From Streptomyces beigongshangae (GTDB lineage: Bacteria > Actinomycetota > Actinomycetes > Streptomycetales > Streptomycetaceae), in contig NZ_JAHKJW010000008.1 in assembly GCF_019710745.1 (NCBI RefSeq), positions 1-64,000 of the forward strand: DNA of 64,000 nt, read 5' to 3'. Made by a program: the position numbers and the translations under genes. Below the pieces are notes generated by a model. The model made no database searches, was not told where the DNA came from, and saw only the letters and a list, made by a program, of their open reading frames with translations. Shown here in pieces: positions 42,745-60,175 of this stretch; the first letter of the stretch is position 1; every line of letters begins with the position of its first letter.

Positions 42745-43713
42745 TCACCCGCGGTGCAGCAGCCAGCCCCGCCACGCGGACTCGACCATCTCGCGCACCC
42801 CGCGCCGCGCGCTCCAGTCCAGTTCCCGTGCGGCGCGTGCGGCCGAGGCGACCGCGCGCGGGGCGTCGCCGGGACGGCGCGGCCCGACGAGCGCCGGGCG
42901 GGCGTCACCGGTGACCTCGCCGATGAGCGTCACGAGCTCACGCACCGAGACCCCCTCGCCGCGGCCGATGTTCACCGTCAGGTCACCCGGCGCGTCCGCC
43001 GGGGCCAGCCGCCGGGCCGCCGCGAGATGAGCCTCGGCGAGGTCGGCGACATGGATGTAGTCGCGCACGCACGTGCCGTCCGGCGTCGGGTGGTCGTCGC
43101 CGAAGATCCGCGGGGACTCCCCGCGGGTGAGCCGGTCGAAGACCATGGGGACGACGTTGAAGACGCCGGTGTCCGCGAGTTCCGGCGCGGCGGCGCCCGC
43201 CACGTTGAAGTACCGCAGGCACACCGTCCCGATGCCGTGCGCGCGGCCCGCGGCCCGCACCAGCCACTCGCCCGCCAGCTTCGTCTCGCCGTAGGGGCTC
43301 AGCGGCGCGCACGGGGTGTCCTCGGTGATGAGGTCCACGTCCGGGTTGCCGTAGACGGCCGCGGACGAGGAGAAGACGAAACGCCGCACACCCGCCCCGG
43401 CCACCGCGTCCAGGAGCGTGGCGAGCCCGCCGACGTTCTCCTGGTAGTAGCGCGCGGGCTGGGACACGGACTCGCCGACCTGCTTGCGGGCGGCCAGGTG
43501 CACCACGCCCGTCACCGCGTGTTCGGCGAGGACCCGCTTCAGCAACTCCCCGTCCAGGGACGACCCCTGGACGAGCGGGATGCCCTCGGGCAGCCGCGCC
43601 GGAACGCCGGCCGAGAGGTCGTCGAGCGCGAGCACGCGCTCCCCGGCCCCGGCCATGGTCCGCGCCACATGTGCCCCGATGTACCCGGCCCCGCCGGTGA
43701 TCAGCCATGTCAT
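42745..43713 (-). CDS. galE: UDP-glucose 4-epimerase
   Basis: 322 aa. Extended SDR with Rossmann motif WLITGGAGYIGAHVAR, VVHLAARKQVGES, catalytic serine/tyrosine in FSSSAAVYGN and SPYGETKLAGEW, and the GalE segment RYFNVAGA. Interconverts UDP-glucose and UDP-galactose using bound NAD. It is divergent from the phospho-polyol operon that begins at 44048, and could supply UDP-sugar to that operon's glycosyltransferase; this link is inferred from position only. Confidence 0.93.
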   Translation of the reverse strand: MTWLITGGAGYIGAHVARTMAGAGERVLALDDLSAGVPARLPEGIPLVQGSSLDGELLKRVLAEHAVTGVVHLAARKQVGESVSQPARYYQENVGGLATLLDAVAGAGVRRFVFSSSAAVYGNPDVDLITEDTPCAPLSPYGETKLAGEWLVRAAGRAHGIGTVCLRYFNVAGAAAPELADTGVFNVVPMVFDRLTRGESPRIFGDDHPTPDGTCVRDYIHVADLAEAHLAAARRLAPADAPGDLTVNIGRGEGVSVRELVTLIGEVTGDARPALVGPRRPGDAPRAVASAARAARELDWSARRGVREMVESAWRGWLLHRG

Positions 43714-44047
43714 GGAGGCACACCTTATGCCGGTCCGGTCACGGCCCGGCCCGGGTCCGCCTTCGGCCCGTCCCGGCCCGGCTCCTCCGCGGCCCGGGTG
43801 GCTATGCCGGTAATTGCGCCGGAATGGTCCGTGGTTTGTGGGCCGGGCCCGGGATCCACGATGATGATCTCGGCGGACGCGCCGATCAGAACCTGTTGAT
43901 CGGACCGTGAACGGGCGGTGAACGGCCGCTTCCCATCATCCGATAGCCTCTGCCGACATGCCGCCCGGCCGTCCCAGGCCCGGGGCGCACCCCCACCACG
44001 CACCCGCCCGGCGTCCCGCACGCCGGAACCCAGAGGAGTGAGTTCGT
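43714..44047. promoter_or_regulatory. Divergent promoter region of galE and the phospho-polyol operon
   Basis: 334 bp. CCGATCA (43882-43888) and TGATCGG (43897-43903) form a 7-bp inverted repeat with an 8-base centre, followed by direct GTGAACGG copies near 43906-43922. GAGGAG at 44033-44038 is the ribosome site of the downstream gene. The rest is GC-rich with no gene. Confidence 0.5.
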
Positions 44048-45889
44048 CTGCCGACCGCCATCCTCACCGGACAGCCGGTACCCGGATCGTCGCTGGAGGG
44101 CGATCTGCGGTCGCTCGGCTTCGACGTGCGGGCCGCCGTCGACGCGGCCGACGCCGAGACCCTCCTCGCCGCCGTCCCCGCGGACCAGCGGGTCGCCGTG
44201 GTCGACGCCCGCTTCGTGGGACACGTCCACGCGCTGCGGCTCGGCCTGACGGACCCCCGCTTCGAGGCCGCCGCGATCCCCGGCGCCGTCACCGCCCGGC
44301 CCGCGGCGCGTCCGGCGCTGGCCGGGGCGCTGCGCACCGCCTCCTCGGACGCGTCGAACGGCTCCGTGGTGGTCGGCATCGTCACCGACCGCGTCGCCGA
44401 ACTCCTCGGCACCGGTCTGCACCGCCCCGAGCTGGGCGAGCTCGTCGCCGCGGTCCCCAGGGACCCCCAGGCCCGCAACGAGGCCCGGCAGGCCGTCGAC
44501 GCCGTGGACGACGAGGCGATCCGGCTGCGTACGGCCGTGAAGTCCCGCGACGGCTTCTTCACCACGTACTGCGTCAGCCCCTACTCCCGCCACCTGGCCC
44601 GCTGGTGCGCCCGCCGGGGCCTGACCCCGAACCAGGTCACCACGGCCTCGCTGGTCACCGCGCTGATCGCGGCCGGCTGCGCGGCGACCGGCACCCGGGG
44701 CGGCTTCGTCGCCGCGGGGCTGCTGCTCCTCCTCTCCTTCGTCCTCGACTGCGCGGACGGCCAGCTCGCCCGCTACTCCCTGCAGTACTCCACGCTCGGC
44801 GCCTGGCTCGACGCGACCTTCGACCGCGCCAAGGAGTACGCCTACTACGCCGGCCTCGCCCTCGGCGCGGCCCGTGGCGGGGACGACGTGTGGGCGCTGG
44901 CCCTCGGCGCGATGGTCCTGCAGACCTGCCGGCACGTCGTCGACTTCTCCTTCAACGAGGCGAACGCCGGCAGCGCGGCCGCCGCCACCGGTCCCACCGC
45001 CGCCCTTTCGGGCAAGCTCGACAGCGTCGGCTGGACGGTCTGGCTGCGCCGCATGATCGTCCTGCCGATCGGCGAGCGCTGGGCGATGATCGCCGTGCTC
45101 ACCGCCCTCACCACGCCCCGCACCACCTTCTGCGTGCTGCTGATCGGCTGCGCCTTCGCCGCGTGCTACACCACCGCCGGCCGGGTGCTGAGGTCGGTGA
45201 CCCGCAGGGCGGTGGGGGTCCCCCCGGGCGTTCAGCGCCGGGGGCGGAGCGACCGGGCCGTCCGGGCACTGGCGGACCTCACCGACTCGGGCCCCCTCGC
45301 GCGGGCCTGCGCGGCGCTGCTCGGCCGGCTCCCGGCCAGGCCGCCGTTCGGTTCGCGCCTGCTGATCGCGCTGCCGGGCGCCGTGCTCCTCGTCGTCGCG
45401 GCCCGGACCTCCGGCCATGGCAGCTGGTGGCCCGTCCTCGCCGCGGCGCTGTACGTCCTCACCTCCGGCGCCGCCGTCGCGCGGCCCCTCGGGGGAGCGC
45501 TCGACTGGCTCGTCCCGCCGGTACTGCGCGCCGCCGAGTACGGCACCGTGCTGATCCTGGCGGCCGAAGCGGAGGTGAACGGCGCCCTTCCGGCGGCTTT
45601 CGGGCTGGTGGCCGCCGTCGCCTACCATCACTACGACACGGTGTACCGCATCCGCGGCGACGCCGGCGCGCCGCCGCACTGGCTGGTGCGGGCGATCGGC
45701 GGGCACGAAGGCAGGACACTGCTGGTCACCGTCCTGGCCGCGCTGCTCGCCGCCGAAGATTTCACGGTCGCGCTCACGGCTCTCGCCGTGGCCGTGGCAC
45801 TGCTGGTGCTCTTCGAGAGCATCCGCTTCTGGGTGACCGCCCACAGGCGCGGCGCACCCGCCGTACACGATGAAGGAGAACCCGCATGA
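44048..45889 (+). CDS. DUF5941-like / CDP-alcohol phosphotransferase fusion, probable CTG start
   Basis: 613 aa if translation begins at CTG 44048; GAGGAG lies nine bases before it and the next in-frame upstream codons include a stop. GTG 44126 is the nearest conventional start but cuts into sequence that continues smoothly (TAILTGQPVPGSSLEGDL). The N-terminal half has no named fold; the centre holds the CDP-alcohol phosphotransferase motif in DCADGQLARY...GAWLDATFD (D-x2-DG-x2-AR-x8-G-x3-D-x3-D). Multiple membrane helices follow. It probably joins a CDP-activated alcohol to an acceptor at the membrane. First gene of the operon to 51134; the stop overlaps the next ATG by 4 bp. Confidence 0.85.
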   Translation: MPTAILTGQPVPGSSLEGDLRSLGFDVRAAVDAADAETLLAAVPADQRVAVVDARFVGHVHALRLGLTDPRFEAAAIPGAVTARPAARPALAGALRTASSDASNGSVVVGIVTDRVAELLGTGLHRPELGELVAAVPRDPQARNEARQAVDAVDDEAIRLRTAVKSRDGFFTTYCVSPYSRHLARWCARRGLTPNQVTTASLVTALIAAGCAATGTRGGFVAAGLLLLLSFVLDCADGQLARYSLQYSTLGAWLDATFDRAKEYAYYAGLALGAARGGDDVWALALGAMVLQTCRHVVDFSFNEANAGSAAAATGPTAALSGKLDSVGWTVWLRRMIVLPIGERWAMIAVLTALTTPRTTFCVLLIGCAFAACYTTAGRVLRSVTRRAVGVPPGVQRRGRSDRAVRALADLTDSGPLARACAALLGRLPARPPFGSRLLIALPGAVLLVVAARTSGHGSWWPVLAAALYVLTSGAAVARPLGGALDWLVPPVLRAAEYGTVLILAAEAEVNGALPAAFGLVAAVAYHHYDTVYRIRGDAGAPPHWLVRAIGGHEGRTLLVTVLAALLAAEDFTVALTALAVAVALLVLFESIRFWVTAHRRGAPAVHDEGEPA

Positions 45890-46638
45890 TCGGCCTCGTG
45901 CTGGCTGCCGGCGCCGGACGGCGTCTGCGCCCCTACACCGACACGCTGCCCAAGGCCCTGGTGCCGGTCGGACCCGAAGGCGAGGAGGACGGCATCACCG
46001 TGCTCGACCTCACCCTCGGCAACTTCGCCGAGATCGGCCTGACCGAGGTCGCGATCATCGTCGGGTACCGCAAGGAAGCCGTCTACGAGCGGCGCGAGGC
46101 GCTGGAGCGGAAGTACGGCGTCAAGATCACGCTGATCGACAACGACAAGGCCGAGGAGTGGAACAACGCCTACTCCCTGTGGTGCGGCCGTGACGCCATC
46201 AAGCACTCGGTGATCCTCGCCAACGGCGACACCGTGCACCCGGTCTCCGTCGAGAAGACCCTGCTCGCCGCCCGCGGCGACGGCAGGAAGATCATCCTGG
46301 CCCTCGACACGGTGAAGTCCCTCGCCGACGAGGAGATGAAGGTCGTCGTCGGCCCCGAGGGCTCCATGACGAAGATCACCAAGCTGATGGACCCCGCGGA
46401 GGCGACCGGTGAGTACATCGGTGTGACCCTCATCGAGGGCGACGCCGCCGACGAGCTGGCCGACGCGCTGAAGACGGTCTTCGAGACGGACCCGCAGCAG
46501 TTCTACGAGCACGGCTACCAGGAGCTCGTGAACCGCGGCTTCCGGATCGACGTGGCCCCCATCGGCGACGTCAAGTGGGTCGAGATCGACAACCACGACG
46601 ACCTCGCCAAGGGACGTGAGATCGCGTGCCAGTACTGA
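45886..46638 (+). CDS. LicC/IPCT-like nucleotidyltransferase
   Basis: 250 aa. N-terminal LVLAAGAGRRLRPYTDTLPKALVPVG is the nucleotidyltransferase signature; IIVGYRKEAV...KYGVKI and EWNNAYSLWCG resemble choline-phosphate (LicC) and inositol-phosphate (IPCT) cytidylyltransferases. It most likely makes a CDP-activated alcohol for the flanking CDP-alcohol phosphotransferases. Start overlaps the preceding stop by 4 bp; the next gene's GTG overlaps this gene by 13 bp. The alcohol phosphate used cannot be read from the sequence. Confidence 0.88.
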   Translation: MIGLVLAAGAGRRLRPYTDTLPKALVPVGPEGEEDGITVLDLTLGNFAEIGLTEVAIIVGYRKEAVYERREALERKYGVKITLIDNDKAEEWNNAYSLWCGRDAIKHSVILANGDTVHPVSVEKTLLAARGDGRKIILALDTVKSLADEEMKVVVGPEGSMTKITKLMDPAEATGEYIGVTLIEGDAADELADALKTVFETDPQQFYEHGYQELVNRGFRIDVAPIGDVKWVEIDNHDDLAKGREIACQY

Positions 46639-47687
46639 CGAGGCTCATCCCCTCGCCGGTCGTCGTCGACATCCGTCCGGGCGCCCTGGACGACCTGGCG
46701 GCGGTCCTCGCCGACCAGCGCATCTCGCACTCCGGCAAGCTGGCCGTCGCGATCAGCGGCGGCTCGGGCGCCGTGCTGCGCGACCGGCTGGCCCCGGCGA
46801 TGCCGGGCGCCGACTGGTTCGAGGTCGGGGGCGGCACCCTGGACGACGCGATCAAGCTCGGCGACGCCATGAAGAGGGGGCGCTACGACGCGGTCGTGGG
46901 CCTCGGCGGCGGCAAGATCATCGACTGCGCGAAGTTCGCCGCGGCCCGGATCGGCCTCCCGCTGGTCGCCGTCGCCACGAACCTCTCGCACGACGGCCTG
47001 TGCTCCCCGGTCGCGACCCTCGACAACGACGCGGGCCGCGGCTCCTACGGTGTGCCGAACCCGATCGCCGTGGTCATCGACCTCGACGTGATCCGGGAGG
47101 CCCCGGTCCGCTTCGTCCGCTCCGGTATCGGCGACGCCCTGTCCAACATCTCCGCGGTCGCGGACTGGGAGCTGGCCAACCGTGAGAAGGGCGAGCAGAT
47201 CGACGGCCTCGCCGCCGCGATGGCCCGCCAGGCCGGCGAGGCCGTGCTGCGGCACCCGGGCGGCGTCGGCGACGACGGCTTCCTCCAGGTGCTGGCCGAG
47301 GGCCTGGTCCTCACCGGCATCTCGATGTCGGTGGCGGGCGACTCCCGCCCGGCGTCCGGCGCCTGCCACGAGATCAACCACGCCTTCGACCTGCTCTTCC
47401 CCAAGCGCGCCGCCAGCCACGGCGAGCAGTGCGGCCTGGGCGCCGCCTTCGCGATGCACCTGCGCGGTGCCCGCGAGGAGTCGGCGTACATGGCGGAGGT
47501 CCTGCGGCGCCACGGACTGCCCGTGCTGCCCGAGGAGATCGGCTTCACCCCGAACGAGTTCGTCCAGGTCGTGGAGTTCGCCCCGACGACCCGGCCGGGC
47601 CGCTTCACGATCCTCGAACACCTCGACCTGTCCACCGACCAGATCAGGGACGCATACGCCGACTATGCAAAAGCCATCGGTAGCTGA
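46626..47687 (+). CDS. Glycerol-1-phosphate dehydrogenase-like enzyme (AraM/EgsA family)
   Basis: 353 aa from GTG 46626. The iron/zinc-containing dehydrogenase fold of sn-glycerol-1-phosphate dehydrogenases: NAD segment VVGLGGGKIIDCAK, NLSHDGLCSP, metal-ligand histidines in ACHEINHAFD and ASHGEQCGLG. Archaea use this enzyme for lipid backbones and Bacillus AraM for a glyceryl lipid; it reduces dihydroxyacetone phosphate. A related polyol-phosphate substrate is possible. Set between a nucleotidyltransferase and a CDP-alcohol transferase, which suggests its product is activated as a CDP-polyol. Confidence 0.85.
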   Translation: MPVLTRLIPSPVVVDIRPGALDDLAAVLADQRISHSGKLAVAISGGSGAVLRDRLAPAMPGADWFEVGGGTLDDAIKLGDAMKRGRYDAVVGLGGGKIIDCAKFAAARIGLPLVAVATNLSHDGLCSPVATLDNDAGRGSYGVPNPIAVVIDLDVIREAPVRFVRSGIGDALSNISAVADWELANREKGEQIDGLAAAMARQAGEAVLRHPGGVGDDGFLQVLAEGLVLTGISMSVAGDSRPASGACHEINHAFDLLFPKRAASHGEQCGLGAAFAMHLRGAREESAYMAEVLRRHGLPVLPEEIGFTPNEFVQVVEFAPTTRPGRFTILEHLDLSTDQIRDAYADYAKAIGS

Positions 47688-48444
47688 GCTCCGCCCGGTC
47701 GTCCACCCCCCGGGGGTCAAGGACCGGCGCAGCGGTGAGCACTGGGGAGGCCGGCTCTACATGCGCGAGATCTCGCTGCGCATCGACCGCCACTTGGTGA
47801 ACACCCGGGTCACGCCCAACCAGCTGACCTACGTGATGACCGTCTTCGGCGTGCTCGCCGCCCCGGCCCTGCTGGTGCCGGGCATCCCGGGCGCCCTGCT
47901 CGGCGTGCTGATGGTCCAGCTGTACCTGCTGTTCGACTGCGTGGACGGCGAGATCGCCCGCTGGCGCAAGCAGTACTCGATGACCGGGGTGTACGTCGAC
48001 CGCGTCGCCGCCTACCTGTGCGACGCCGCGGTCCTGGTCGGCTTCGGCCTGCGCGCCGCGGACCTGTGGGGCACCGGGCGGATCGACTGGCTGTGGGCGT
48101 TCCTCGGCACCCTGGCCGCCCTCGGCGCCGTCCTGATCAAGTCCGAGACCGACCTCGTCGGGGTCGCCCGCCACCAGACCGGGAAGGCACCGGTCCAGGA
48201 GTCGGCGTCCGAGCCGCGCTCCTCCGGCATGGCGCTGGCCCGCCGGGCCGCCGCCGCGCTGAAGTTCCACCGGCTCGTCCTGGGCATAGAGGCATCCCTG
48301 CTGATCCTGGTCCTCGCCGTCCTGGACACGGTCCGGGACGACCTGTTCTTCTCGCGGCTCGGCGTCGCGGTCCTGGCCGGCATCGCGCTGCTGCAGACCG
48401 TGCTGCACCTGGTGTCGATCCTCGCCTCCAGCAGGCTGAAGTGA
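47665..48444 (+). CDS. CDP-alcohol phosphotransferase
   Basis: 259 aa from ATG 47665, overlapping the preceding gene by 23 bp. The signature DCVDGEIARW...GVYVDRVAAYLCD fits D-x2-DG-x2-AR-x8-G-x3-D-x3-D exactly, with several transmembrane helices around it. It moves an alcohol phosphate from a CDP carrier to an acceptor, as in phospholipid or inositol-phosphate synthesis. This is the second enzyme of this type in the operon. Its stop overlaps the GTG of the glycosyltransferase gene. Confidence 0.88.
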   Translation: MQKPSVAELRPVVHPPGVKDRRSGEHWGGRLYMREISLRIDRHLVNTRVTPNQLTYVMTVFGVLAAPALLVPGIPGALLGVLMVQLYLLFDCVDGEIARWRKQYSMTGVYVDRVAAYLCDAAVLVGFGLRAADLWGTGRIDWLWAFLGTLAALGAVLIKSETDLVGVARHQTGKAPVQESASEPRSSGMALARRAAAALKFHRLVLGIEASLLILVLAVLDTVRDDLFFSRLGVAVLAGIALLQTVLHLVSILASSRLK

Positions 48445-49334
48445 GCACCGCCATGAAGGTCGGCGCGGTGATCATCACCATGGGCAACCGCCCCGACGAA
48501 CTCCGCGCCCTCCTCGACTCGGTCGCCAAGCAGGACGGCGACCCGGTCGAGGTGGTCGTGGTCGGCAACGGCTCGCCCGTCCCCGACGTCACCGGGGCGA
48601 TACCGAACGTCCGTACGGTCGAGCTGCCGGAGAACCTCGGCATCCCCGGCGGCCGCAACGTCGGCATCGAGGCGTTCGGCCCCGGCGGCACCGACGTGGA
48701 CGTCCTGCTCTTCCTCGACGACGACGGCCTCCTCGCGCGCCACGACACCGCCGAGCTCTGCCGGCGGGCCTTCGCGGCCGACCCGGAGCTCGGCATCATC
48801 AGCTTCCGCATCGCCGACCCAGAGACCGGGATCACCCAGCGCCGCCACGTGCCGCGGCTGCGCGCCTCCGACCCGATGCGCGACTCCCGCGTCACCACCT
48901 TCCTCGGCGGCGCCAATGCGGTCCGCACGAAGGTGCTCGCCGAGGTCGGCGGGCTGCCCGACGAGTTCTTCTACGCCCACGAGGAGACCGACCTCGCCTG
49001 GCGGGCCCTGGACGCGGGCTGGATGATCGACTACCGCTCGGACATGGTGCTGAACCACCCCACGACCGCGCCCTCCCGGCACGCGGTCTACCACCGGATG
49101 GTCGCCCGCAACCGCGTCTGGCTGGCCCGCCGGAACCTGCCTGCCCCGCTGGTCCCCGTGTACCTCGGCGTGTGGATGCTGCTCACCCTCGCCCGCCGCC
49201 CCTCGGGGCCGGCCCTGAAGGCATGGTTCGGCGGTTTCAAGGAGGGCTGGACCAGCCCTTGCGGCCCCCGGCGGCCGATGAAGTGGCGTACGGTATGGCG
49301 CCTGACCCGTCTGGGCCGGCCACCGGTCATCTGA
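48441..49334 (+). CDS. GT2-family glycosyltransferase
   Basis: 297 aa from GTG 48441 (GTGA overlap with the preceding stop); ATG 48453 is the alternative. GT-A fold features: VGAVIITMGNRPDELRALLDS, LGIPGGRNVGI (nucleotide-sugar binding), DxD-like LFLDDDG and the catalytic-base region HEETDLAWRALDAG. A short C-terminal amphipathic stretch may attach to membrane. Donor sugar unknown. It presumably glycosylates the product made by the upstream enzymes before export. Confidence 0.9.
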   Translation: MSTAMKVGAVIITMGNRPDELRALLDSVAKQDGDPVEVVVVGNGSPVPDVTGAIPNVRTVELPENLGIPGGRNVGIEAFGPGGTDVDVLLFLDDDGLLARHDTAELCRRAFAADPELGIISFRIADPETGITQRRHVPRLRASDPMRDSRVTTFLGGANAVRTKVLAEVGGLPDEFFYAHEETDLAWRALDAGWMIDYRSDMVLNHPTTAPSRHAVYHRMVARNRVWLARRNLPAPLVPVYLGVWMLLTLARRPSGPALKAWFGGFKEGWTSPCGPRRPMKWRTVWRLTRLGRPPVI

Positions 49335-49432
49335 CATGCTCGATGTCTGAGAGCATTCGGGCCGTACCCCGGTCCCTGTCTTTGGTCTGTGCCCCACCAG
49401 GCCGCGCATCTTGAGGACGAAAGTTTCCACTT

Positions 49433-50362
49433 GTGAGTGAGACAACGCATGACGGCGGCGTCGCGGTGAGCGCCCCCCCGTCCCCCGACGACGGGCTCTC
49501 CGCGGCGGACCTCGCCGCCAAGTACGGGCTGGCCGTGAGCGGTGCCCGGCCCGGGCTCGTCGACTACGTCCGCCAGCTCTGGGGACGGCGTCACTTCATC
49601 CTCGCCTTCTCGCAGGCGAAGCTCACCGCCCAGTACAGCCAGGCCAAGCTCGGCCAGCTGTGGCAGGTGGCCACACCGCTGCTGAACGCGGCCGTGTACT
49701 TCCTGATCTTCGGCCTGATCCTGAAGGCCGACCGCGGCATGGAGCGGGAGGTCTACATCCCGTTCCTGGTGACGGGTGTCTTCGTCTTCACCTTCACCCA
49801 GAGCTCGGTGATGGCGGGCGTGCGCGCGATCTCCGGCAACCTCGGCCTGGTCCGGGCACTGCACTTCCCGCGCGCCGCGCTGCCGATCTCGTTCTCGCTG
49901 CAGCAGCTCCAGCAGCTGCTCTTCTCGATGATCGTCCTGTTCGTCGTGGCGGTCGGCTTCGGCAGCTACCCGAGGCCGTCCTGGCTGCTGATCGTGCCGG
50001 TGCTGGTCCTGCAGTTCCTCTTCAACACCGGCCTGGCCATGATCATGGCCAGGATGGGCTCCAAGACCCCGGACCTGGCCCAGCTCATGCCGTTCGTGAT
50101 GCGCACGTGGATGTACGCGTCCGGCGTCATGTTCTCGATCCCCGTGATGCTCGACGAGCACCCCGACTGGATCGCCGACATCCTCCAGTGGAACCCGGCC
50201 GCCATCTACATGGACCTGATGCGCTTCGCGCTCATCGACGGCTACGGCTCCGAGAACCTGCCGCCGCACGTGTGGGCGGTCGCGGGCGGCTGGGCCCTCC
50301 TCGTCGCCCTCGGCGGCTTCGTGTATTTCTGGAAGGCTGAGGAGCGCTACGGCCGTGGCTGA
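49433..50362 (+). CDS. ABC-2 exporter permease (Wzm/TagG-like)
   Basis: 309 aa from GTG 49433 (GAGGACGAA lies about 14 nt upstream). A charged N-terminal segment (about 1-65) precedes six membrane helices, with the ABC-2 polysaccharide export signature near LRQLWGRRHF and QWNPAAIYMDLMRFAL. TagG/Wzm proteins move finished polymers or glycolipids across the membrane. Paired with the ATPase that overlaps its end by 8 bp. Confidence 0.9.
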   Translation: MSETTHDGGVAVSAPPSPDDGLSAADLAAKYGLAVSGARPGLVDYVRQLWGRRHFILAFSQAKLTAQYSQAKLGQLWQVATPLLNAAVYFLIFGLILKADRGMEREVYIPFLVTGVFVFTFTQSSVMAGVRAISGNLGLVRALHFPRAALPISFSLQQLQQLLFSMIVLFVVAVGFGSYPRPSWLLIVPVLVLQFLFNTGLAMIMARMGSKTPDLAQLMPFVMRTWMYASGVMFSIPVMLDEHPDWIADILQWNPAAIYMDLMRFALIDGYGSENLPPHVWAVAGGWALLVALGGFVYFWKAEERYGRG

Positions 50363-51134
50363 GCAGAACACCGGGAGCCCGATCCCGACCGTCATCGCGG
50401 ACGAGCTGCACATCGTCTACCGGGTCAACGGCGCCAGGACCGGCAAGGGCAGCGCCACCGCAGCCCTCAGCCGCATAATCAAGCGCGGCGAGGAGCGGGG
50501 CGTGCGCAAGGTGCACGCCGTCCGCGGTGTCTCCTTCACGGCCTACCGCGGTGAGGCCATCGGCCTGATCGGTTCCAACGGCTCGGGCAAGTCCACCCTG
50601 CTGCGGGCCATCGCCGGACTGCTCCCCGCCGAGAGGGGCCACGTCTACACCGACGGCCAGCCCTCGCTCCTCGGCGTCAACGCGGCCCTGATGAACGACC
50701 TGACCGGCGAGCGCAACGTCATCCTCGGCGGACTGGCCATGGGCATGTCCCGGGAACAGATCAAGGAGCGCTACCAGGACATCGTCGAGTTCTCGGGCAT
50801 CAACGAGAAGGGCGACTTCATCACCCTGCCGATGCGCACCTACTCCTCCGGCATGGCCGCCCGGCTGCGCTTCTCCATCGCGGCGGCCAAGGACCACGAC
50901 GTCCTGATGATCGACGAGGCCCTCGCCACCGGCGACCGCAATTTCCAGAAGCGCTCCGAGGCCCGGATCCGGGAGCTGCGCAAGGAGGCCGGCACGGTCT
51001 TCCTCGTCAGCCACAACAACAAGTCGATCCGTGACACGTGCGACCGCGTCCTGTGGCTGGAACGCGGCGAGCTCCGCCTGGACGGCCCGACCGACGAGGT
51101 CATCAAGGAGTACGAGAAGTTCACGGGCAGGTAA
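50355..51134 (+). CDS. ABC exporter ATPase (Wzt/TagH-like)
   Basis: 259 aa from GTG 50355. Complete ABC domain: Walker A GSNGSGKST, the polysaccharide-export LLGVNAALMNDLTGERN segment, signature YSSGMAARLRF, Walker B VLMIDEALATGD, and H-loop VSHNN. An N-terminal extension (about 1-60) without the long C-terminal carbohydrate-binding domain of Wzt is TagH-like. It powers the permease encoded upstream. Last gene of the operon, followed by a strong terminator. Confidence 0.93.
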   Translation: MAEQNTGSPIPTVIADELHIVYRVNGARTGKGSATAALSRIIKRGEERGVRKVHAVRGVSFTAYRGEAIGLIGSNGSGKSTLLRAIAGLLPAERGHVYTDGQPSLLGVNAALMNDLTGERNVILGGLAMGMSREQIKERYQDIVEFSGINEKGDFITLPMRTYSSGMAARLRFSIAAAKDHDVLMIDEALATGDRNFQKRSEARIRELRKEAGTVFLVSHNNKSIRDTCDRVLWLERGELRLDGPTDEVIKEYEKFTGR

Positions 51135-51152
51135 CCCGTGCCGCCGAGCAGG

Positions 51153-51194
51153 ACGCAGGGCCCCGCCGGAACGGTTCGGCGGGGCCCTGCGTCT
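51153..51194. terminator. Strong hairpin terminator after the phospho-polyol operon
   Basis: CGCAGGGCCCCGCCG (51155-51169) and its exact complement (51178-51192) enclose an 8-base loop; two further pairs extend the stem to 17 bp. It lies 19 bp after the ATPase stop, with no opposing gene close by. This is the clearest terminator in the window. Confidence 0.9.
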
Positions 51195-51440
51195 GCCAAG
51201 AAAACGTCAACTCCCCACGCCCGTAGGAATCTTGACGCCAATCGGTGTGTTCTTGTGATGTGCGGGACACCCCGGCGGAGCGTGGTGGGTTGTACAACGT
51301 AAGCTGTACCGGTGCTGATTCGCGGCAAGTGGGGCGATAGCGCACGACACCCGGCATAGGGCCCGCCGTGCGAACAGCCGGGTGGCCGGGCGGCGTGTCC
51401 GAAAGAGGCACCAATGGGTCAGCAGTGTAGAACGGGAGAT
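51195..51440. other. Promoter region of the hopanoid operon
   Basis: After the terminator this AT-richer stretch must hold the hopanoid promoter. It contains an inverted pair GTACA (51293-51297) / TGTAC (51306-51310), a TTGACG hexamer at 51233 with no good partner at the usual spacing, and no credible gene before the leader ORF at 51441. Confidence 0.4.
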
Positions 51441-51530
51441 ATGACGGCAATGGCTACGGAAGGTCTCCGGCTCCGCCGTGCGTGTGCCGTCTGCGGGTGT
51501 GCCGCCCCCGGCCCGGGCGGCGGACGGTGA
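51441..51530 (+). CDS. Leader ORF (29 aa) coupled to hpnC
   Basis: ATG 51441, with GGGAG six bases upstream, opens 29 codons (MTAMATEGLRLRRACAVCGC...) whose TGA overlaps the GTG of hpnC by 4 bp. The clean ribosome site and the overlap suggest translational coupling: the leader may set hpnC expression. The peptide has three cysteines and a basic stretch. No family is known to me. Confidence 0.45.
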   Translation: MTAMATEGLRLRRACAVCGCAAPGPGGGR

Positions 51531-52429
51531 CGCCAGTCGGGACGGTGCGCACGGGCGACCCGGAGCGCAGCACCCTCGACAAGGCCGCGGACGAGAACTT
51601 TCCCGTGGCGCCGTTCTTCCTGCCCAGGGCCTGGCGCGCCGACCTCGTGGCGGTCTACGGCTTCGCCCGGCTCGTCGACGACATCGGCGACGGGGACCTG
51701 GCCCCCGGCGGCGCGGACGCCCGCCTCCTCGGTGTGCCGCCCGAGGAGGCCGGGGACCGGGTCGTGCTGCTCGACGCCTTCGAGGCGGACCTGCGCAGGG
51801 TCTTCGACTCGACACCCGGCCACCCGCTCCTGCGCCGCCTCCAGCCGACGGTCCGCCGCGCCGGCCTGACCCCCGAGCCCTTCCTCGCCCTGATCGCGGC
51901 CAACCGCCAGGACCAGCTCGTCCGGCGGTACGCGACCTACGGCGACCTCCTCGCCTACTGCGAGCTGTCCGCCAACCCGGTCGGCCGTCTCGTCCTGTCC
52001 GTCACCGGCGCCTCGACCCCCGAACGGGTCCGCCGCTCCGACGCGATCTGCACGGCCCTGCAGATCGTCGAGCACCTCCAGGACGTCGCCGAGGACCTCG
52101 GCCGCGACCGCGTCTACCTCCCCGCCGAGGACATGGAGCGCTTCCACGTCCGGGAGGCGGACCTCGCCGCACCCACGGCAGGCGCATCGGTGCGCGCGCT
52201 GGTCGCGTACGAAGCAGAACGCGCCCGCGGTCTCCTGAATGAAGGCACCCCCCTCGTGGGTAGCGTCCACGGCAGGCTGAGGCTGCTGCTCGCGGGGTTC
52301 GTGGCAGGGGGCGGGGCGGCGATCCGGGCGATCACCGCCGCCGAGTTCGACGTACTTCCCGGCCCGCCGAAGCCCGGCAAGCTCCAGTTGCTGCGCGAGG
52401 TGGGAGTGACCCTGCGAGGAAAGGGGTGA
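51527..52429 (+). CDS. hpnC: Squalene synthase component HpnC
   Basis: 300 aa from GTG 51527, the start favoured by the overlapping leader ORF. trans-isoprenyl diphosphate synthase (squalene/phytoene synthase) fold with the first Asp-rich motif LVDDIGD (about residue 53) and the second VAEDLGRDRVYLP. In the HpnCDE route, HpnC converts presqualene diphosphate to hydroxysqualene. Its TGA overlaps the GTG of hpnD by 4 bp. Confidence 0.93.
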   Translation: MTPVGTVRTGDPERSTLDKAADENFPVAPFFLPRAWRADLVAVYGFARLVDDIGDGDLAPGGADARLLGVPPEEAGDRVVLLDAFEADLRRVFDSTPGHPLLRRLQPTVRRAGLTPEPFLALIAANRQDQLVRRYATYGDLLAYCELSANPVGRLVLSVTGASTPERVRRSDAICTALQIVEHLQDVAEDLGRDRVYLPAEDMERFHVREADLAAPTAGASVRALVAYEAERARGLLNEGTPLVGSVHGRLRLLLAGFVAGGGAAIRAITAAEFDVLPGPPKPGKLQLLREVGVTLRGKG

Positions 52430-53376
52430 TCCGGACCGTGGAGCCGCAACCGCACCTGTCCGCACCGGTACTCGCCGCATACGGCTACTGCGAGGCGATC
52501 ACCGGGCGGCAGGCCCGCAACTTCGCGTACGGCATCCGGCTGCTGCCGGCGCCCAAGCGCCGTGCCATGTCCGCGCTGTACGCGTTCTCACGGCGCGTCG
52601 ACGACATCGGCGACGGCACGCTCGCACCCGACGTCAAGGCCAAGCGGCTGGAGGAGACCCGGACCCTGCTCACCCGGGTCCGCGAACGGTCGGTGGACGA
52701 CGACGACACCGACCCGGTCGCCGTCGCGCTGCGGCACACGGCGGACCACTTCCCGGTGCCGCTCGACGGCCTCGACGAACTCATCGACGGCGTCCTGATG
52801 GACGTCCGCGGCGAGACGTACGAGACCTGGGACGACCTCAGGGTCTACTGCCGCTGCGTCGCCGGGGCCATCGGCCGGCTCTCGCTCGGCGTCTTCGGCA
52901 CGGAACCGGGGGCGCGCGGGGCCGAGCGGGCCCCCGAGTACGCGGACACGCTCGGCCTTGCCCTGCAGCTCACCAACATCCTCAGGGACGTCCGGGAGGA
53001 CGCCGGGGACGGCCGGACCTATCTGCCCGCGGACGACCTCGCGAAGTTCGGCTGCTCGGCCGGGTTCGGCGGGCCGCGCCCGCCGGAGGGCTCCGACTTC
53101 GCGGGCCTCGTGCACTTCGAGGTGCGGCGGGCCCGCGCGCTGTTCGCGGAGGGCTACCGGCTGCTGCCGATGCTGGACCGGCGCAGCGGCGCCTGCGTGG
53201 CCGCGATGGCCGGCATCTACCGCCGCCTCCTGGACCGCATCGAGCGCGAACCGGAGGCCGTCCTGCGCGGCCGGGTCTCGCTGCCCGGCCGTGAGAAGGC
53301 GTACGTCGCCGTGCGGGGCCTGTCCGGTCTCGACGCCCGGCACGTCTCGCGCCGGACCGTCAGGAGGCGGGCCTGA
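52426..53376 (+). CDS. hpnD: Presqualene diphosphate synthase HpnD
   Basis: 316 aa from GTG 52426. Squalene/phytoene synthase family with the Asp-rich motifs RRVDDIGD (about residue 60) and ILRDVREDAGDGRTYLP, plus the YCRCVAGAIG helix. It condenses two farnesyl diphosphates to presqualene diphosphate, the first step of the hopanoid pathway. Overlaps hpnC by 4 bp; its stop codon overlaps the next small ORF (TGATG). Confidence 0.95.
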   Translation: MIRTVEPQPHLSAPVLAAYGYCEAITGRQARNFAYGIRLLPAPKRRAMSALYAFSRRVDDIGDGTLAPDVKAKRLEETRTLLTRVRERSVDDDDTDPVAVALRHTADHFPVPLDGLDELIDGVLMDVRGETYETWDDLRVYCRCVAGAIGRLSLGVFGTEPGARGAERAPEYADTLGLALQLTNILRDVREDAGDGRTYLPADDLAKFGCSAGFGGPRPPEGSDFAGLVHFEVRRARALFAEGYRLLPMLDRRSGACVAAMAGIYRRLLDRIEREPEAVLRGRVSLPGREKAYVAVRGLSGLDARHVSRRTVRRRA

Positions 53377-53516
53377 TGGACACTCCGTCCCAGGACGACG
53401 CAAGTCCCTGGAAACGGGACGCAACCCTCCGGTCGCGGACGGCGTCCCTGACTGCGACGGCCGGCCGCGCCCCGTTCCACCGGCACGGCGGAGCCGCGGG
53501 GGAAGGTGCGCGATGA
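53376..53516 (+). CDS. Small coupled ORF between hpnD and hpnE (46 aa)
   Basis: 46 aa, ATG 53376 with AGGAGG upstream; the start shares one base with the hpnD stop (TGATG) and the stop overlaps the hpnE start (ATGA). The peptide (MDTPSQDDASPWKRDATLRS, then ASLTATAGRAPFHRHG) resembles small DUF6380-type Streptomyces proteins as I remember them. No signal or membrane segment. Its place inside a fully overlapping operon argues that it is translated. Confidence 0.7.
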   Translation: MDTPSQDDASPWKRDATLRSRTASLTATAGRAPFHRHGGAAGEGAR

Positions 53517-54937
53517 ACGACACCACGCAGGACGAAGGGCCCGCCGCCGGCGCGTCGGACCGCCCCGCGACGGCCGTGGTGGTCGGCGGGGGGCTCGCGG
53601 GAACGACCTCGGCCCTCGCGCTGGCCGACGCGGGAGTCCGGGTGACGCTGCTCGAAGGCCGGCCCCGCCTCGGCGGACTCGCCTTCTCCTTCCGGCGCGG
53701 CGACCTCACGGTGGACAACGGCCAGCACGTCTACCTGCGCTGCTGCACGGCCTACCGCTGGTTCCTCGACCGCGTCGGGGCGGCGGACCTCGCGCCGCTG
53801 CAGGAACGTCTCGACGTCCCCGTCCTCGACGCCGGGGCGCGGCCGGGGCGCCGGCTCGGCAGGATCGGCCGCACGGCGCTGCCCGTGCCGCTGCATCTCG
53901 CGCGCAGCCTCGCGGCCTACCCGCATCTGTCGCTCGCCGAGCGTGCCCGGGTGGGCCGTGCCGCCTGGGCGCTCAGGAAGCTCGATCCCGCCGACCCCGC
54001 GCTCGACACGCGCAGCTTCGGCAGCTGGCTGGCCGCGCACGGCCAGTCGGACCGGGCCGTCGAGGCACTGTGGGACCTCGTGGGGGTCGCCACCCTCAAC
54101 GCGGTGGCCGGCGACGCCTCGCTCGGGCTCGCCGCGATGGTGTTCAGGACCGGGCTGCTCTCCGCCCCGGGCGCCGCCGACATCGGCTGGGCACACGTCC
54201 CGCTGGGAGAACTGCACGACCGGCTGGCCCGCAAGGCGCTCGACTCCGCGGGCGTCCGTACCGAAGTCCGTACCCGTGTCACCTCCGTCTCCCGCCAGGA
54301 GAACGGCCGCTGGCGCGTCCGGGTGCCCGGCGGGACGCTGGAGACCGACGCCGTCGTGCTCGCCGTACCGCAGCGCGAGGCCCACGACCTGCTGCCGCAG
54401 GGCGCGCTCGACGCCCCGGGGCGGCTGCTGGAGATCGGCACGGCGCCGATCCTCAACATCCACGTCGTGTACGACCGCACGGTGCTCGCCCGGCCGTTCT
54501 TCGCCGCGCTCGGCTCCCCGGTGCAGTGGGTCTTCGACCGGACCGCGGCCTCCGGGCTGCGGGAGGGCCAGTACCTCGCGCTGTCGCAGTCGGCCGCGCA
54601 GGACGAGATCGACACACCCGTCGCGACGCTGCGCGAGCGCTACCTGCCCGAGCTGGAGCGGCTGCTGCCCCGCACCCGGGACGCCCGGGTCCGGGACTTC
54701 TTCGTGACCAGGGAGCGGACGGCGACGTTCGCCCCGGCCCCCGGCGTCGGCCGGCTGCGGCCCGGCGCCCGCACCGGGGTCCCCGGCCTGTACCTGGCCG
54801 GCGCGTGGACCGCCACGGGGTGGCCCGCGACCATGGAGGGCGCGGTCCGCAGCGGGGTGAGCGCGGCCGACGCCGCGCTGAGCGCCCTGGGCCGGCCCCG
54901 CGACCACCTCGCCGAGCTGTTCGAGGAGGCGGCATGA
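53513..54937 (+). CDS. hpnE: Hydroxysqualene dehydroxylase HpnE
   Basis: 474 aa. FAD-dependent phytoene-desaturase-like protein: N-terminal dinucleotide motif AVVVGGGLAGTTSALALADAG, the LLEGRPRLGG segment, and C-terminal GLYLAGAWTATGWPATMEGAVRSG. It reduces hydroxysqualene to squalene, completing the HpnCDE route. Its start overlaps the small ORF and its stop overlaps the next ATG by 4 bp. Confidence 0.94.
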   Translation: MNDTTQDEGPAAGASDRPATAVVVGGGLAGTTSALALADAGVRVTLLEGRPRLGGLAFSFRRGDLTVDNGQHVYLRCCTAYRWFLDRVGAADLAPLQERLDVPVLDAGARPGRRLGRIGRTALPVPLHLARSLAAYPHLSLAERARVGRAAWALRKLDPADPALDTRSFGSWLAAHGQSDRAVEALWDLVGVATLNAVAGDASLGLAAMVFRTGLLSAPGAADIGWAHVPLGELHDRLARKALDSAGVRTEVRTRVTSVSRQENGRWRVRVPGGTLETDAVVLAVPQREAHDLLPQGALDAPGRLLEIGTAPILNIHVVYDRTVLARPFFAALGSPVQWVFDRTAASGLREGQYLALSQSAAQDEIDTPVATLRERYLPELERLLPRTRDARVRDFFVTRERTATFAPAPGVGRLRPGARTGVPGLYLAGAWTATGWPATMEGAVRSGVSAADAALSALGRPRDHLAELFEEAA

Positions 54938-56070
54938 CGCCCGGCCGGAGCGCGGCCGCCACCGGCTCCCGCAGCCCCAGTACCGCCAATGGAGGAGAGA
55001 CTGTGCCCACTGTGCCCCCGGCATCGAAGACTGCCGACGCGGTGGACGTGACCGCGCTCCTGGAGCGCGGCCGGACCCTGGCCTCACCGGTGCTGCGGGC
55101 GGCCATCGACCGCCTCGCCCCGCCCATGGACACGGTCGCCGCCTACCACTTCGGCTGGATCGACGCCGCCGGCAACCCCGCCGAGGGCGACGGGGGCAAG
55201 GCCGTCCGGCCCGCCCTGGCCGTGCTGTCCGCCGAGGCCGCCGGCGCCGCCCCCGAGGTGGGCGTGCCGGGCGCGGTCGCCGTGGAACTGGTGCACAACT
55301 TCTCGCTCCTGCACGACGACCTGATGGACGGCGACGAGCAGCGCCGCCACCGTGACACCGTCTGGAAGGTGCACGGCCCCGCCCAGGCGATCCTCGTGGG
55401 CGACGCGCTGTTCGCGCTGGCCAACGAACTGCTCCTCGAACTCGGCACGGTCGAGGCGGGCCGCGCCACCCGCCGGCTGACCACCGCCACGCGCGCGCTG
55501 ATCGACGGCCAGGCGCAGGACATCTCCTACGAGCACCGCGACCGGGTCAGCGTCGAGGAGTGCCTGGAGATGGAGGGCAACAAGACCGGCGCCCTGCTCG
55601 CCTGCGCCTGCTCCATCGGTGCGGTCCTCGGCGGCGCCGACGACCGCACGGCCGACACCCTGGAGAAGTACGGCTACCACCTCGGCCTCGCCTTCCAGGC
55701 CGTCGACGACCTGCTCGGCATCTGGGGCGACCCGGTGGCCACCGGCAAGCAGACCTGGAGCGACCTGCGCCAGCGCAAGAAGTCCCTGCCGGTCGTGGCC
55801 GCGCTCGCGGCGGGCGGCCCGGCCTCCGTGCGACTCGGCGAACTGCTCGCCGCGGACGCCGGCCGGAGCGACTTCGAGAACTTCTCCGAGGAGGAGTTCG
55901 CCGCGCGCGCCGCGCTCATCGAGGAGGCCGGCGGCCGCGAGTGGACCGCCCAGGAGGCGCGCCGCCAGCACACCGTCGCCGTCGAGGCGCTCGACACGAT
56001 CCGCATGCCGGACCGGGTGCGGGCCCAGTTCGTGGAGCTGGCCGACTTCGTCGTCGTACGGAAGAGATGA
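54934..56070 (+). CDS. Polyprenyl diphosphate synthase
   Basis: 378 aa from ATG 54934 (GAGGAGG upstream); GTG 55003 with its own GGAGGAG site is an alternative start, so the first 23 residues may not be in the main product. Class I trans-prenyl synthase with first Asp-rich motif LLHDDLMDGD and second region AVDDLLGIWGD, where DDLLG replaces the usual DDxxD. Likely provides farnesyl diphosphate for squalene synthesis. The stop of hpnE overlaps the start. Confidence 0.92.
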   Translation: MTPGRSAAATGSRSPSTANGGETVPTVPPASKTADAVDVTALLERGRTLASPVLRAAIDRLAPPMDTVAAYHFGWIDAAGNPAEGDGGKAVRPALAVLSAEAAGAAPEVGVPGAVAVELVHNFSLLHDDLMDGDEQRRHRDTVWKVHGPAQAILVGDALFALANELLLELGTVEAGRATRRLTTATRALIDGQAQDISYEHRDRVSVEECLEMEGNKTGALLACACSIGAVLGGADDRTADTLEKYGYHLGLAFQAVDDLLGIWGDPVATGKQTWSDLRQRKKSLPVVAALAAGGPASVRLGELLAADAGRSDFENFSEEEFAARAALIEEAGGREWTAQEARRQHTVAVEALDTIRMPDRVRAQFVELADFVVVRKR

Positions 56071-56180
56071 GCCCCATCGGTCGGACAGCCCTCGCGTAGT
56101 CGCCGGCCGGTGCCGCGGAACCACACGTACCGGCCGACGGCGGACCCACAGCAGAGACACCACTGCACGAAGGGGAAGCC

Positions 56181-58199: not shown

Positions 58200-58843
58200 T
58201 GGGCGGGGCACCGCGCGCCGCCCCGCTGCTGATCGCCTGCGCACTGGGCATCGAGCGGCTCGCCCTGCGCACCGGCGGCGACCGCGGCGGCGCCGCGGGA
58301 CCGGTCACCGTGGTGCGCACCGGCATGGGGGCGCCGGCCGCCCGGCGGGCGGTCGGCAGGGCGCTGGCCGGACCCGCGATGAGCGGGGCGGCCGTCCTGG
58401 CCACGGGCTTCTGCGCCGGTCTCGCCCCCGGTATGCGTCCGGGAGACCTGGTCGTCGCCGAGGAGACCCGGGACCCGCACGGAGTCACCCCGTGCGTGGG
58501 CACCGGCCTGCTCGTCGGGGAACTGAAGCGCGCCGTTCCCGGGCGCGCCGTCCACACGGGACCGCTCACCGGTTCCGATCACATCGTCCGCGGCCACGAA
58601 CGGCCGCGGCTGCTCGCGACCGGGGCGATCGCGGTCGACATGGAGTCGGCTGCCACGCTCCACACGGCCGTCGGCACGGGAGAGCGTCCGGTTGCCGCCG
58701 TACGGGTGGTCGTGGACGCTCCCGCATATGAACTCGTCCGGATCGGCACGCTGCGCGGTGGAATATCGGCTTTCCGCGTCCTCCGTGCCATCCTTCCCGT
58801 TTTTCATGAATGGCACCGTTCTCCGCTGCTCCCCAGGAGGTGA
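58199..58843 (+). CDS. hpnG: Adenosylhopane nucleosidase/phosphorylase HpnG
   Basis: 214 aa from ATG 58199, sharing one base with the shc stop. Purine nucleoside phosphorylase/MTAN fold, with TGMGAPAARRAV and the substrate-binding AVDMESAATL. HpnG removes adenine from adenosylhopane to give the ribosyl hopane. It sits just before hpnH, whose product it uses. Confidence 0.87.
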   Translation: MGGAPRAAPLLIACALGIERLALRTGGDRGGAAGPVTVVRTGMGAPAARRAVGRALAGPAMSGAAVLATGFCAGLAPGMRPGDLVVAEETRDPHGVTPCVGTGLLVGELKRAVPGRAVHTGPLTGSDHIVRGHERPRLLATGAIAVDMESAATLHTAVGTGERPVAAVRVVVDAPAYELVRIGTLRGGISAFRVLRAILPVFHEWHRSPLLPRR

Positions 58844-58848
58844 GCCAG

Positions 58849-59871: not shown

Positions 59872-59875
59872 CGAC

Positions 59876-60175
59876 ATGACCGCCGTCTCCCTGGGCCTCC
59901 CCGAGGTGCCGGTCCGGCCGGTCGCGCAGCGCCGTGCCTCACGGCGCCTCCAGGTCGGACCGGTGGCGGTCGGGGGCGGGGCGCCCGTCTCGGTGCAGTC
60001 GATGACGACGACCCGTACGTCGGACGTCGGTGCCACGCTCCAGCAGATCGCCGAGCTGACCGCGGCCGGCTGCGAGGAGGCGACGGGGCTCGCCGAGCGG
60101 ATGCGGGCCGACGGCGTCGCGCCGGGCGCGCCGGAGGTCACGGCGGCGGGGGCACCCGTCGGCACGGTGGGGTAG
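59876..60175 (+). pseudogene. ispG: Internally deleted ispG (GcpE) remnant
   Basis: 99 codons from ATG 59876 to TAG. Residues 1-66 are the IspG start ([39 protein letters not shown]). They join directly to [15 protein letters not shown], which is the IspG C-terminus; the usual family length is about 385 residues, so roughly 285 are missing, in frame. The iron-sulfur cysteines and active site lie in the missing part, so the product cannot do the MEP step (MEcPP to HMBPP). A full ispG must exist elsewhere in the genome. Confidence 0.85.

Follow-up and report, generated by a model that had tools for sequence, protein, structure and literature searches.

A Streptomyces operon that may make and export a teichoic-acid-type glycerol-phosphate glycoconjugate

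Introduction

What would a Streptomyces make with an enzyme that resembles glycerol-1-phosphate dehydrogenase (G1PDH) and has no PcrB-type prenyltransferase to serve? This question is raised by a locus of Streptomyces beigongshangae (assembly GCF_019710745.1). The window, meaning the whole stretch of DNA analyzed (64,000 nucleotides; NZ_JAHKJW010000008.1, positions 1 to 64,000), is on contig C191 of a 9.13-Mb genome in 212 contigs, and positions 44048–51134 of its + strand hold seven genes, g1 to g7, all of which were confirmed. They encode a three-part protein with a cytidine diphosphate (CDP)-alcohol phosphotransferase domain (g1), a nucleotidyltransferase (g2), a G1PDH-like enzyme (g3), a second CDP-alcohol phosphotransferase homolog (g4), a glycosyltransferase (g5), and an ABC-2 permease and ATPase (g6 and g7). 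A sequence-only reading of this DNA had outlined a flow from ketose phosphate through polyol phosphate and CDP-polyol to transfer, glycosylation, and export of an envelope glycoconjugate. Our computations covered which genes the locus holds, how far they are conserved and coupled, what surrounds them, how their proteins are predicted to fold, and which residues are missing. Both the flow and the kind of product were supported, and we propose, with a probability of about 0.5, that the operon starts from an archaeal-handed precursor and yields a glycerol-phosphate glycoconjugate of the teichoic acid type, which it also exports.

In the proposed pathway, g3 would reduce dihydroxyacetone phosphate (DHAP) to sn-glycerol-1-phosphate, which g2 would join to cytidine triphosphate (CTP), giving CDP-1-glycerol in place of the TagD route. 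g1 would transfer glycerol phosphate onto a lipid acceptor as a priming or anchor step, and g5 would add a sugar. The chain would be extended, again with CDP-1-glycerol, by TagF-type polymerases, whose genes lie elsewhere in Streptomyces and near g2–g3 in some other actinobacteria, and the TagGH-like pair g6/g7 would move the lipid-linked product across the membrane. The earlier flow was incomplete in that it lacked the TagF-type polymerase, which is encoded elsewhere in the genome. The substrates, the stereochemistry, and the order of the steps are all inferred, as is the connection of g2/g3 with TagF.

Results

Conservation of the gene set and coupling of g2 and g3

The gene set is conserved in other actinobacteria, a check that the sequence-only reading had called for. 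All seven genes, together with hpnC/hpnD, were found in 8/8 further genomes of the same genus, so chance is excluded. For a wider view we used the best 80 named loci, ranked by identity to a query from a non-Streptomyces genome; they are not a census and were grouped by hand into 26 Streptomycetaceae-type loci and 54 others. The 26 include L114 (named Wenjunlia) and L129 (named Streptosporangium nondiastaticum), both with Streptomyces-type operons, and some loci drawn from the genome set repeat named ones (e.g. L160 and L124). All seven genes are present in 24 of the 26, the other two (L115 and L143) ending at a contig edge.

g2 and g3 are nearly inseparable. They are adjacent in 78/80 named loci, including 52/54 outside the Streptomycetaceae-type group, and a class sample of 197 genomes contains g3 in 47, g2 in 47, both in 46, and either in 48; in the two exceptions, G365 and G375, the pair lies at a contig end. 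The rest of the set is looser at the 54 other loci, where g3 and g4 are adjacent in 28, g4 and g5 in 27, and both ABC genes were detected in six. At 20 of these loci, whose genus names all belong to Micromonosporaceae, the gene after g3 is instead a different short CDP-alcohol phosphotransferase that keeps the four signature aspartates. The sequence-only reading had regarded this setting as unusual for a G1P-type dehydrogenase, which did not hold up: the g2–g3 pair is found widely across Actinomycetota, and its neighbors in families other than Streptomycetaceae are often teichoic acid genes.

Two same-genus genomes carry a second copy of g3 (G403; L163 16379–17506) or of g2–g3 (G433; L164 8802–10603), adjoining genes that by eye resemble ribosomal L21/L27 and Obg and lying near TagF or GalE-like genes. 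In family f9 (L063–L066), a dehydrogenase about 41% identical to g3 shares a stretch with a CDP-alcohol phosphotransferase retaining all four aspartates, a more remote variation on this theme.

Predicted activities of g3 and g2

Among solved structures, g3 matches the G1PDH 4rgq (E 1.9e-40) and 3ce9, which is called a glycerol dehydrogenase (E 5.5e-41). It carries an Fe-ADH_2 domain with the DG..SP, SRPxSGxxH, and HGE blocks seen in alignments to 4rgq, 4rfl, 5fb3, and 9h4x. The likely product of g3, judging from these matches, is glycerol-1-phosphate. The nearest solved structures to g2 are LicC 1jyk (E 1.9e-12), PntC 6pd1, and 4jd0, and by inspection R13, K23, and D115 of g2 fall at motif positions. 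We propose that g2 acts as a CTP:glycerol-1-phosphate cytidylyltransferase. A cytidylyltransferase activity of Archaeoglobus is described as preferring glycerol-1-phosphate (PMC8262930).

Family resemblance to G1PDH could also mean that g3 has a role in archaeal-type ether lipids like that of AraM, which works with PcrB in Bacillus subtilis, and archaeal-like lipids in Streptomyces have been inferred as possible from gene content (PMC6431249). However, the window genome has no PcrB, as the sequence-only reading had noted for this setting, and 0/197 class genomes, 47 of them with g3, contain a PcrB match over cut-off. Fourteen partial matches below threshold were all in genomes without g3, and the 16 same-genus genomes of the sample (window genome included) have g3 and no PcrB match. 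We therefore rejected an archaeal-type ether lipid, for which the PcrB/GGGP synthase was not found, as highly improbable.

Co-occurrence with TagF and teichoic acid genes

A TagF-type polymerase is probably a main consumer of the CDP-polyol. TagF was matched in 74 of the 197 class genomes and accompanies g3 in 45/47 g3-bearing genomes, compared with 29/150 genomes without g3 (Fisher p 3.5e-22 by genome). Counted by genus, the figures are 19/20 with g3 and 18/70 without it (Fisher p 1.9e-8); phylogeny is uncorrected, and G375 was scored as g3-lacking in these tests. TagD-like matches occur in 14/197 class genomes, none over cut-off, and in 0/47 genomes with g3 (p 0.025 by genome).

In the window genome, TagF (PF04464) was matched four times, each time on contig C175, and TagD was not matched. 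Compared with a glycerol teichoic acid system, the polymerase is thus present in the genome and TagD is the variant part. Searching the same genome for IspD gave one strong match beside a frame that is IspF-like by eye and two weak ones, of which L158 reads as GlmU by eye and L159 scores 27 bits. At L155 5305–12266 of this genome, large frames with a start that looks GT2-like by eye combine with TagF-type domains, and no cytidylyltransferase was noticed nearby; these frames are possible consumers of the CDP-polyol.

At the 54 loci outside the Streptomycetaceae-type group, tblastn detected IspD/TarI-like genes in 23, LCP in 21, GDPD in 13, and TagF in seven, and 23 of the 29 g4-bearing loci among them had at least one of these teichoic acid markers. 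The marker queries came from L085, L086, L113, and the window genome (L155), so that the first three match themselves. Pfam searches of ten neighboring genes identified a TagF-type Glyphos_transf domain, IspD twice, GDPD twice, LytR_cpsA_psr, a UDP-GlcNAc 2-epimerase, and two glycosyltransferases; one of the IspD neighbors is fused to a short-chain dehydrogenase, as in the TarI–TarJ pair, and one of the ten had no Pfam match. At L161, g2, g3, g6, and g7 stand together with TagF-like genes, GDPD, and LCP.

Evidence against the proposal and the choice of polyol

Several observations weigh against a G1P-derived teichoic acid. Against the curated G1PDH model PRK00843, g3 scores 231.4 bits, under the cut-off of 413. 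Moreover, the glutamate that precedes a conserved histidine in the archaeal enzymes is cysteine in 72, aspartate in 39, and glutamate in 0 of 111 g3 matches, as placed by alignments only, whereas 6/6 more distant relatives and the five PDB relatives shown have it. Owing to the sub-cut-off score and the replacement of glutamate by cysteine or aspartate, the substrate of g3 may differ from that of the archaeal enzymes; because of the score, the earlier assignment to the G1P type, and with it glycerol-1-phosphate, is likely rather than firm. CpgD, a related cytidylyltransferase, makes CDP-glycerate and gave no product with glycerol-1-phosphate in the assays described in PMC12275187. Of two TagF-like polymerases tested in another study, Cps3D was inactive with pure CDP-1-glycerol, and its authors held CDP-1-glycerol likely to be absent in bacteria (PMC8262930).

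The genomic link has exceptions of its own. Two g3 genomes lack a TagF match, G376 and the 68% complete G430. The exclusion of TagD is not significant by genus (0/20 with g3 and 5/70 without, p 0.58). In addition, 22/74 TagF genomes have neither g3 nor TagD, one of them (G375) having g2, from which it follows that other CDP-polyol sources exist. Finally, none of the teichoic acid markers (IspD-like, LCP, GDPD, TagF) was found in the fetched flanks of the 26 Streptomycetaceae-type loci, so that in this family the TagF link is one of co-occurrence only.

Actinobacterial teichoic acids contain several polyols. It is therefore worth considering that g3 reduces another ketose phosphate and that g2 makes another CDP-polyol, such as that of a tetritol or pentitol, for such a polymer. 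The low G1PDH score and the altered residue beside the conserved histidine are in keeping with this, and g2 weakly matches several substrate classes. However, the best matches of g3 are glycerol and G1P dehydrogenases, and AF2299, to which g1 and g4 come closest among solved structures, binds and uses CDP-glycerol (PMC4634129). We consider a different polyol unlikely, although it has some weight, and retain glycerol-1-phosphate in the scheme.

A three-part g1 with a predicted lipid-acceptor module

g1 had been read as a fused CDP-alcohol phosphotransferase. The phosphotransferase was borne out, and the protein has three parts: a nucleotidyltransferase fold (residues 1–153) that by eye in the alignment lacks the catalytic motifs, the CDP-alcohol phosphotransferase (residues ~165–388), and a DUF5941 domain. 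The signature DCADGQLAR...GAWLDATFD completes the pattern D1xxD2GxxAR...GxxxD3xxxD4 with all four aspartates, and D4 is present in 51/51 g1-type motifs. Of 18 non-Streptomycetaceae loci checked, 16 encode the two membrane parts in separate frames and two, L071 and L124, have them in a single frame; the protein thus comes in a split and a joined form.

An AlphaFold 2 model of g1 (24 aligned rows, pLDDT 89.8) matches AF2299 over residues 1–381 with a Z score of 20.2 and IspD at residues 1–153 with Z of about 12. Over residues 165–605, it superposes on the eukaryotic enzymes CHPT1/CEPT1 (8ul9, 8ero, 9uet, 8gyw) for 307–318 residues at 3.7–3.9 A, with VIA-align Z scores of 18.6–19.9. Fold matches of helical bundles call for caution in general; the Z values of g1 are well above that level. 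PgsA1 and PgsA, which have no extra C-terminal module, align with the model over 157–190 residues. This difference in aligned length makes DUF5941 a likely counterpart of the extra C-terminal helices tied to lipid acceptors, and the model suggests that the acceptor of g1 is a lipid. CDP-alcohol phosphotransferases with lipid acceptors typically have three to four extra C-terminal transmembrane helices, and the same 2015 paper describes every characterized prokaryotic enzyme as having the form with six helices (PMC4634129). No paper on DUF5941 was found in the open-licence PMC literature.

The predicted lipid acceptor also fits a product that is itself a lipid. g1/g4 would then use CDP-1-glycerol to build a phosphoglycerol glycolipid (a lipoteichoic acid (LTA)-like anchor or a phosphoglycolipid), g5 would glycosylate it, g6/g7 would flip it, and TagF would be served by another route. 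Besides the superposition on the lipid-acceptor enzymes CHPT1/CEPT1, the lack of TagF in the flanks of the 26 Streptomycetaceae-type loci fits such a product, as does the presence of LTA in S. hygroscopicus, although actinobacteria are said to lack clear LtaS orthologs (PMC3196553). Against it, the g2–g3 pair of L161 stands with TagF-like genes, and a search limited to its 20 kb found no CDP-alcohol phosphotransferase signature there; nor does the window genome have another CDP-glycerol source among the two families searched, TagD and IspD. A lipid product thus seems unlikely, to about the same degree as a different polyol, and the teichoic-acid-type product remains our preferred reading.

g4 lacks the fourth aspartate

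g4 belongs to the same family, as had been claimed, and has lost one of the eight signature residues: in DCVDGEIAR...GVYVDRVAA, D1–D3 are kept and D4 is alanine. Among 77 g4 motifs read, this position is alanine in 30, histidine in 47, and aspartate in 0, where G108 counts twice because of overlapping stretches and one further histidine motif was classed as "other"; adding that motif completes the set of 55 named loci that match g4. The alanine form occurs in the window and most Streptomyces loci and the histidine form elsewhere, as well as in L114, L125, L129, and L137. By comparison, the other 7/8 family members of the window genome have all four aspartates. D4 is the likely catalytic base, and its replacement by asparagine nearly abolishes the activity of phosphatidylinositol-phosphate synthase (PMC4634129). 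Because g4 has lost this aspartate, in 77/77 motifs, the proposal that the polyol phosphate is transferred twice is doubtful.

The fold of g4 nevertheless matches AF2299 (Z 16.9), and its Foldseek/VIA lists contain the CDP-alcohol phosphotransferase fold followed by weak, unrelated helical proteins. Ahead of the first helix is a conserved N-terminal EHWxGxxYMR motif with an invariant EHW, which is a candidate replacement for the lost base. As a diverged homolog, g4 may act together with g1 or may be an enzyme in which another residue serves as the base.

Glycosyltransferase and exporter

The NCBIfam matches of g5 (MftF, EpsD, rhamnosyltransferase, GlfT1, and others) are all below their cut-offs. 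The same is true of g6, for which the galactan export permease model gave 52.6 bits against a cut-off of 380. TagH is the best of 184 NCBIfam matches of g7, yet it is under the equivalog cut-off. g6 and g7 can thus be assigned to an ABC-2 exporter pair of the polysaccharide or teichoic acid type at the family level only, with Pfam ABC2_membrane and ABC_tran over cut-off.

Operon structure and neighboring genes

The seven genes had been described as one operon of overlapping or nearly abutting genes. g1/g2, g2/g3, g3/g4, and g6/g7 overlap by 4, 13, 23, and 8 nt, and g4 and g5 are 8 nt apart, so that 5/6 joints are overlapping or at most 8 nt; g5 and g6 are separated by 98 nt. g1–g7 are predicted to be on one transcript. 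This is likely rather than firm because a weak terminator-like site lies in the 98-nt gap and a scan of positions 43700–51700 found no sigma-70-like promoter; the gap is a possible break in the operon. Four terminator-like sites were found in 8 kb, where 1.8 ± 1.3 were expected. Among the 34 Streptomycetaceae-type loci in which the pattern was found (window included), g1 begins with TTG 18 times and with CTG 16 times, and an AGGAG/GGGAG-like (Shine–Dalgarno-like) stretch precedes the start codon in all 34.

Table 1. Features of the operon and its surroundings (window coordinates)
Feature	Position	Strand	Description
g1	44048–45889	+	three-part protein, CTG start; PF01066 37.8 bits, PF19365 312 bits
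DUF5941 of g1	45251–45886	+	C-terminal part of g1
g2	45886–46638	+	LicC/IPCT-like nucleotidyltransferase; PF00483 42.7 bits
g3	46626–47687	+	EgsA/AraM-like (glycerol-1-phosphate-dehydrogenase-like) enzyme; PF13685 98.5 bits
g4	47665–48444	+	CDP-alcohol phosphotransferase homolog with six transmembrane helices; PF01066 37.4 bits
g5	48453–49334	+	GT2 glycosyltransferase; PF00535 49 bits
Terminator-like site	49359–49375		weak; in the g5–g6 gap
g6	49433–50362	+	ABC-2 permease, Wzm/TagG/KpsM-like; PF01061 49 bits
g7	50355–51134	+	ABC ATPase, TagH/Wzt-like; Pfam ABC_tran over cut-off; TagH model PRK13546 183.5 bits, cut-off 320
GC-rich hairpin	51148–51196	+	22 pairs, no U-run; probable end of transcription unit
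Hopanoid genes	51524–60000		HpnC, HpnD, then squalene-hopene cyclase- and HpnH-like (by eye)
4-Epimerase-like gene	42745–43713	-	UDP-glucose 4-epimerase-like (by eye)
Desaturase-like frame	11134–12114	-	by eye
ASdes match	11693–11760	+	Rfam small RNA match, 66.1 bits

Directly downstream are hopanoid genes, with HpnC and HpnD above the NCBIfam equivalog cut-offs. hpnC/hpnD come next in 25/26 Streptomycetaceae-type loci (the 26th is cut) as well as in the 8/8 fetched genomes, which raises the possibility that the operon belongs to hopanoid metabolism like its Streptomyces neighbors. However, the operon is a separate unit, with a strong hairpin (-48.3 kcal/mol, z -5.91; 0/200 shuffles equally stable) between g7 and hpnC/hpnD, and hpnC/hpnD were detected in 0/54 other loci. 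Hopanoid decoration was rejected as very unlikely, the adjacency being confined to Streptomycetaceae-type loci.

The 4-epimerase-like gene is divergent to g1 and has a similar counterpart close to the TagF cluster of the window genome (L155 16598–17587). Elsewhere in the window, the ASdes match is antisense within the desaturase-like frame and may be a mere reflection of conserved coding sequence.

Discussion

Our analysis of the operon suggests a wider view, which we hold tentatively and at somewhat less than even odds. In this view, DHAP would be the starting point from which many Actinomycetes, including Streptomyces, form CDP-1-glycerol de novo. Their TagF-type polymerases would assemble it into teichoic acids of mirror-image handedness (sn-glycerol-1-phosphate), a bacterial equivalent of the eukaryotic cholinephosphotransferase would carry out the priming, and G1PDH would be a cell-wall enzyme in these bacteria. 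Cps7D, a TagF-like capsule polymerase, polymerizes pure CDP-1-glycerol in vitro (PMC8262930), and loci of the g2–g3 type are counter-candidates to the supposed absence of this nucleotide from bacteria. With regard to handedness, the LTA of B. subtilis is a polymer of sn-glycerol-1-phosphate and its wall polymer one of sn-glycerol-3-phosphate, and GlpQ is a stereospecific sn-glycerol-3-phosphodiesterase (PMC7086022). In S. hygroscopicus, the polyglycerolphosphate LTA and the wall polymer are very similar in structure (PMC3196553).

If true, the proposal would supply Streptomyces, whose searched genomes gave no TagD, with a source of CDP-glycerol. It would also imply a wall polymer of mirror-image handedness and a role for DUF5941 as a lipid-acceptor module, and it could account for the many actinobacteria in which an "archaeal" lipid enzyme stands without the partner it usually has. 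Arguments about the lipid divide, and about what membranes the last common ancestor had, have drawn on bacterial G1PDH (PMC5059525, PMC6431249); this evidence changes its meaning if the actinobacterial branch feeds cell-wall polymers.

No experiments on the operon were found in the open-licence PMC literature. A 2026 synteny paper describes a teichoic acid-associated Streptomyces block of crtB-tagH-tagG-araM with clusters 14531, 14532, and 14538, apparently the same gene set (PMC13118837). Relative to what that source presents, we add a mechanism, the range outside Streptomyces, the TagF/TagD link, and the structural analysis. New beside the literature found are the coupling of g2 and g3, the association with TagF, the absence of PcrB, the fold of DUF5941, and the lesion in g4.

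Comparing the operon with known systems, it resembles the Firmicute glycerol teichoic acid pathway (TagD-TagB-TagF-TagGH with LCP ligases) in the activation of a CDP-polyol, a TagGH-like exporter, TagF in the genome, and, at many loci outside Streptomycetaceae, LCP, GDPD, and TarI-like neighbors. However, the Firmicute route uses glycerol-3-phosphate and TagD, whereas here DHAP would pass through G1PDH-like and LicC-like enzymes, CDP-alcohol phosphotransferases are present, and mirror-image handedness is expected. The Bacillus AraM–PcrB route to heptaprenylglyceryl lipid shares the G1PDH-type dehydrogenase; g3, by contrast, has no PcrB, is coupled with a nucleotidyltransferase, and occurs alongside TagF. 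The Archaeoglobus protein AF2299 and IPCT-DIPPS, which are CDP-glycerol and CDP-inositol phosphotransferases and the solved proteins nearest to g1 and g4, share with g1 a nucleotidyltransferase fold joined to a CDP-alcohol phosphotransferase, whereas g1 has lost the N-terminal motifs and adds DUF5941, and g4 has neither such a domain nor the fourth aspartate. Likewise, the g1 model shares with eukaryotic CHPT1/CEPT1 the arrangement of a catalytic transmembrane domain and a C-terminal transmembrane module, but g1 is bacterial, is 10–12% identical to these enzymes, and has CDP-glycerol rather than CDP-choline or CDP-ethanolamine as its proposed donor.

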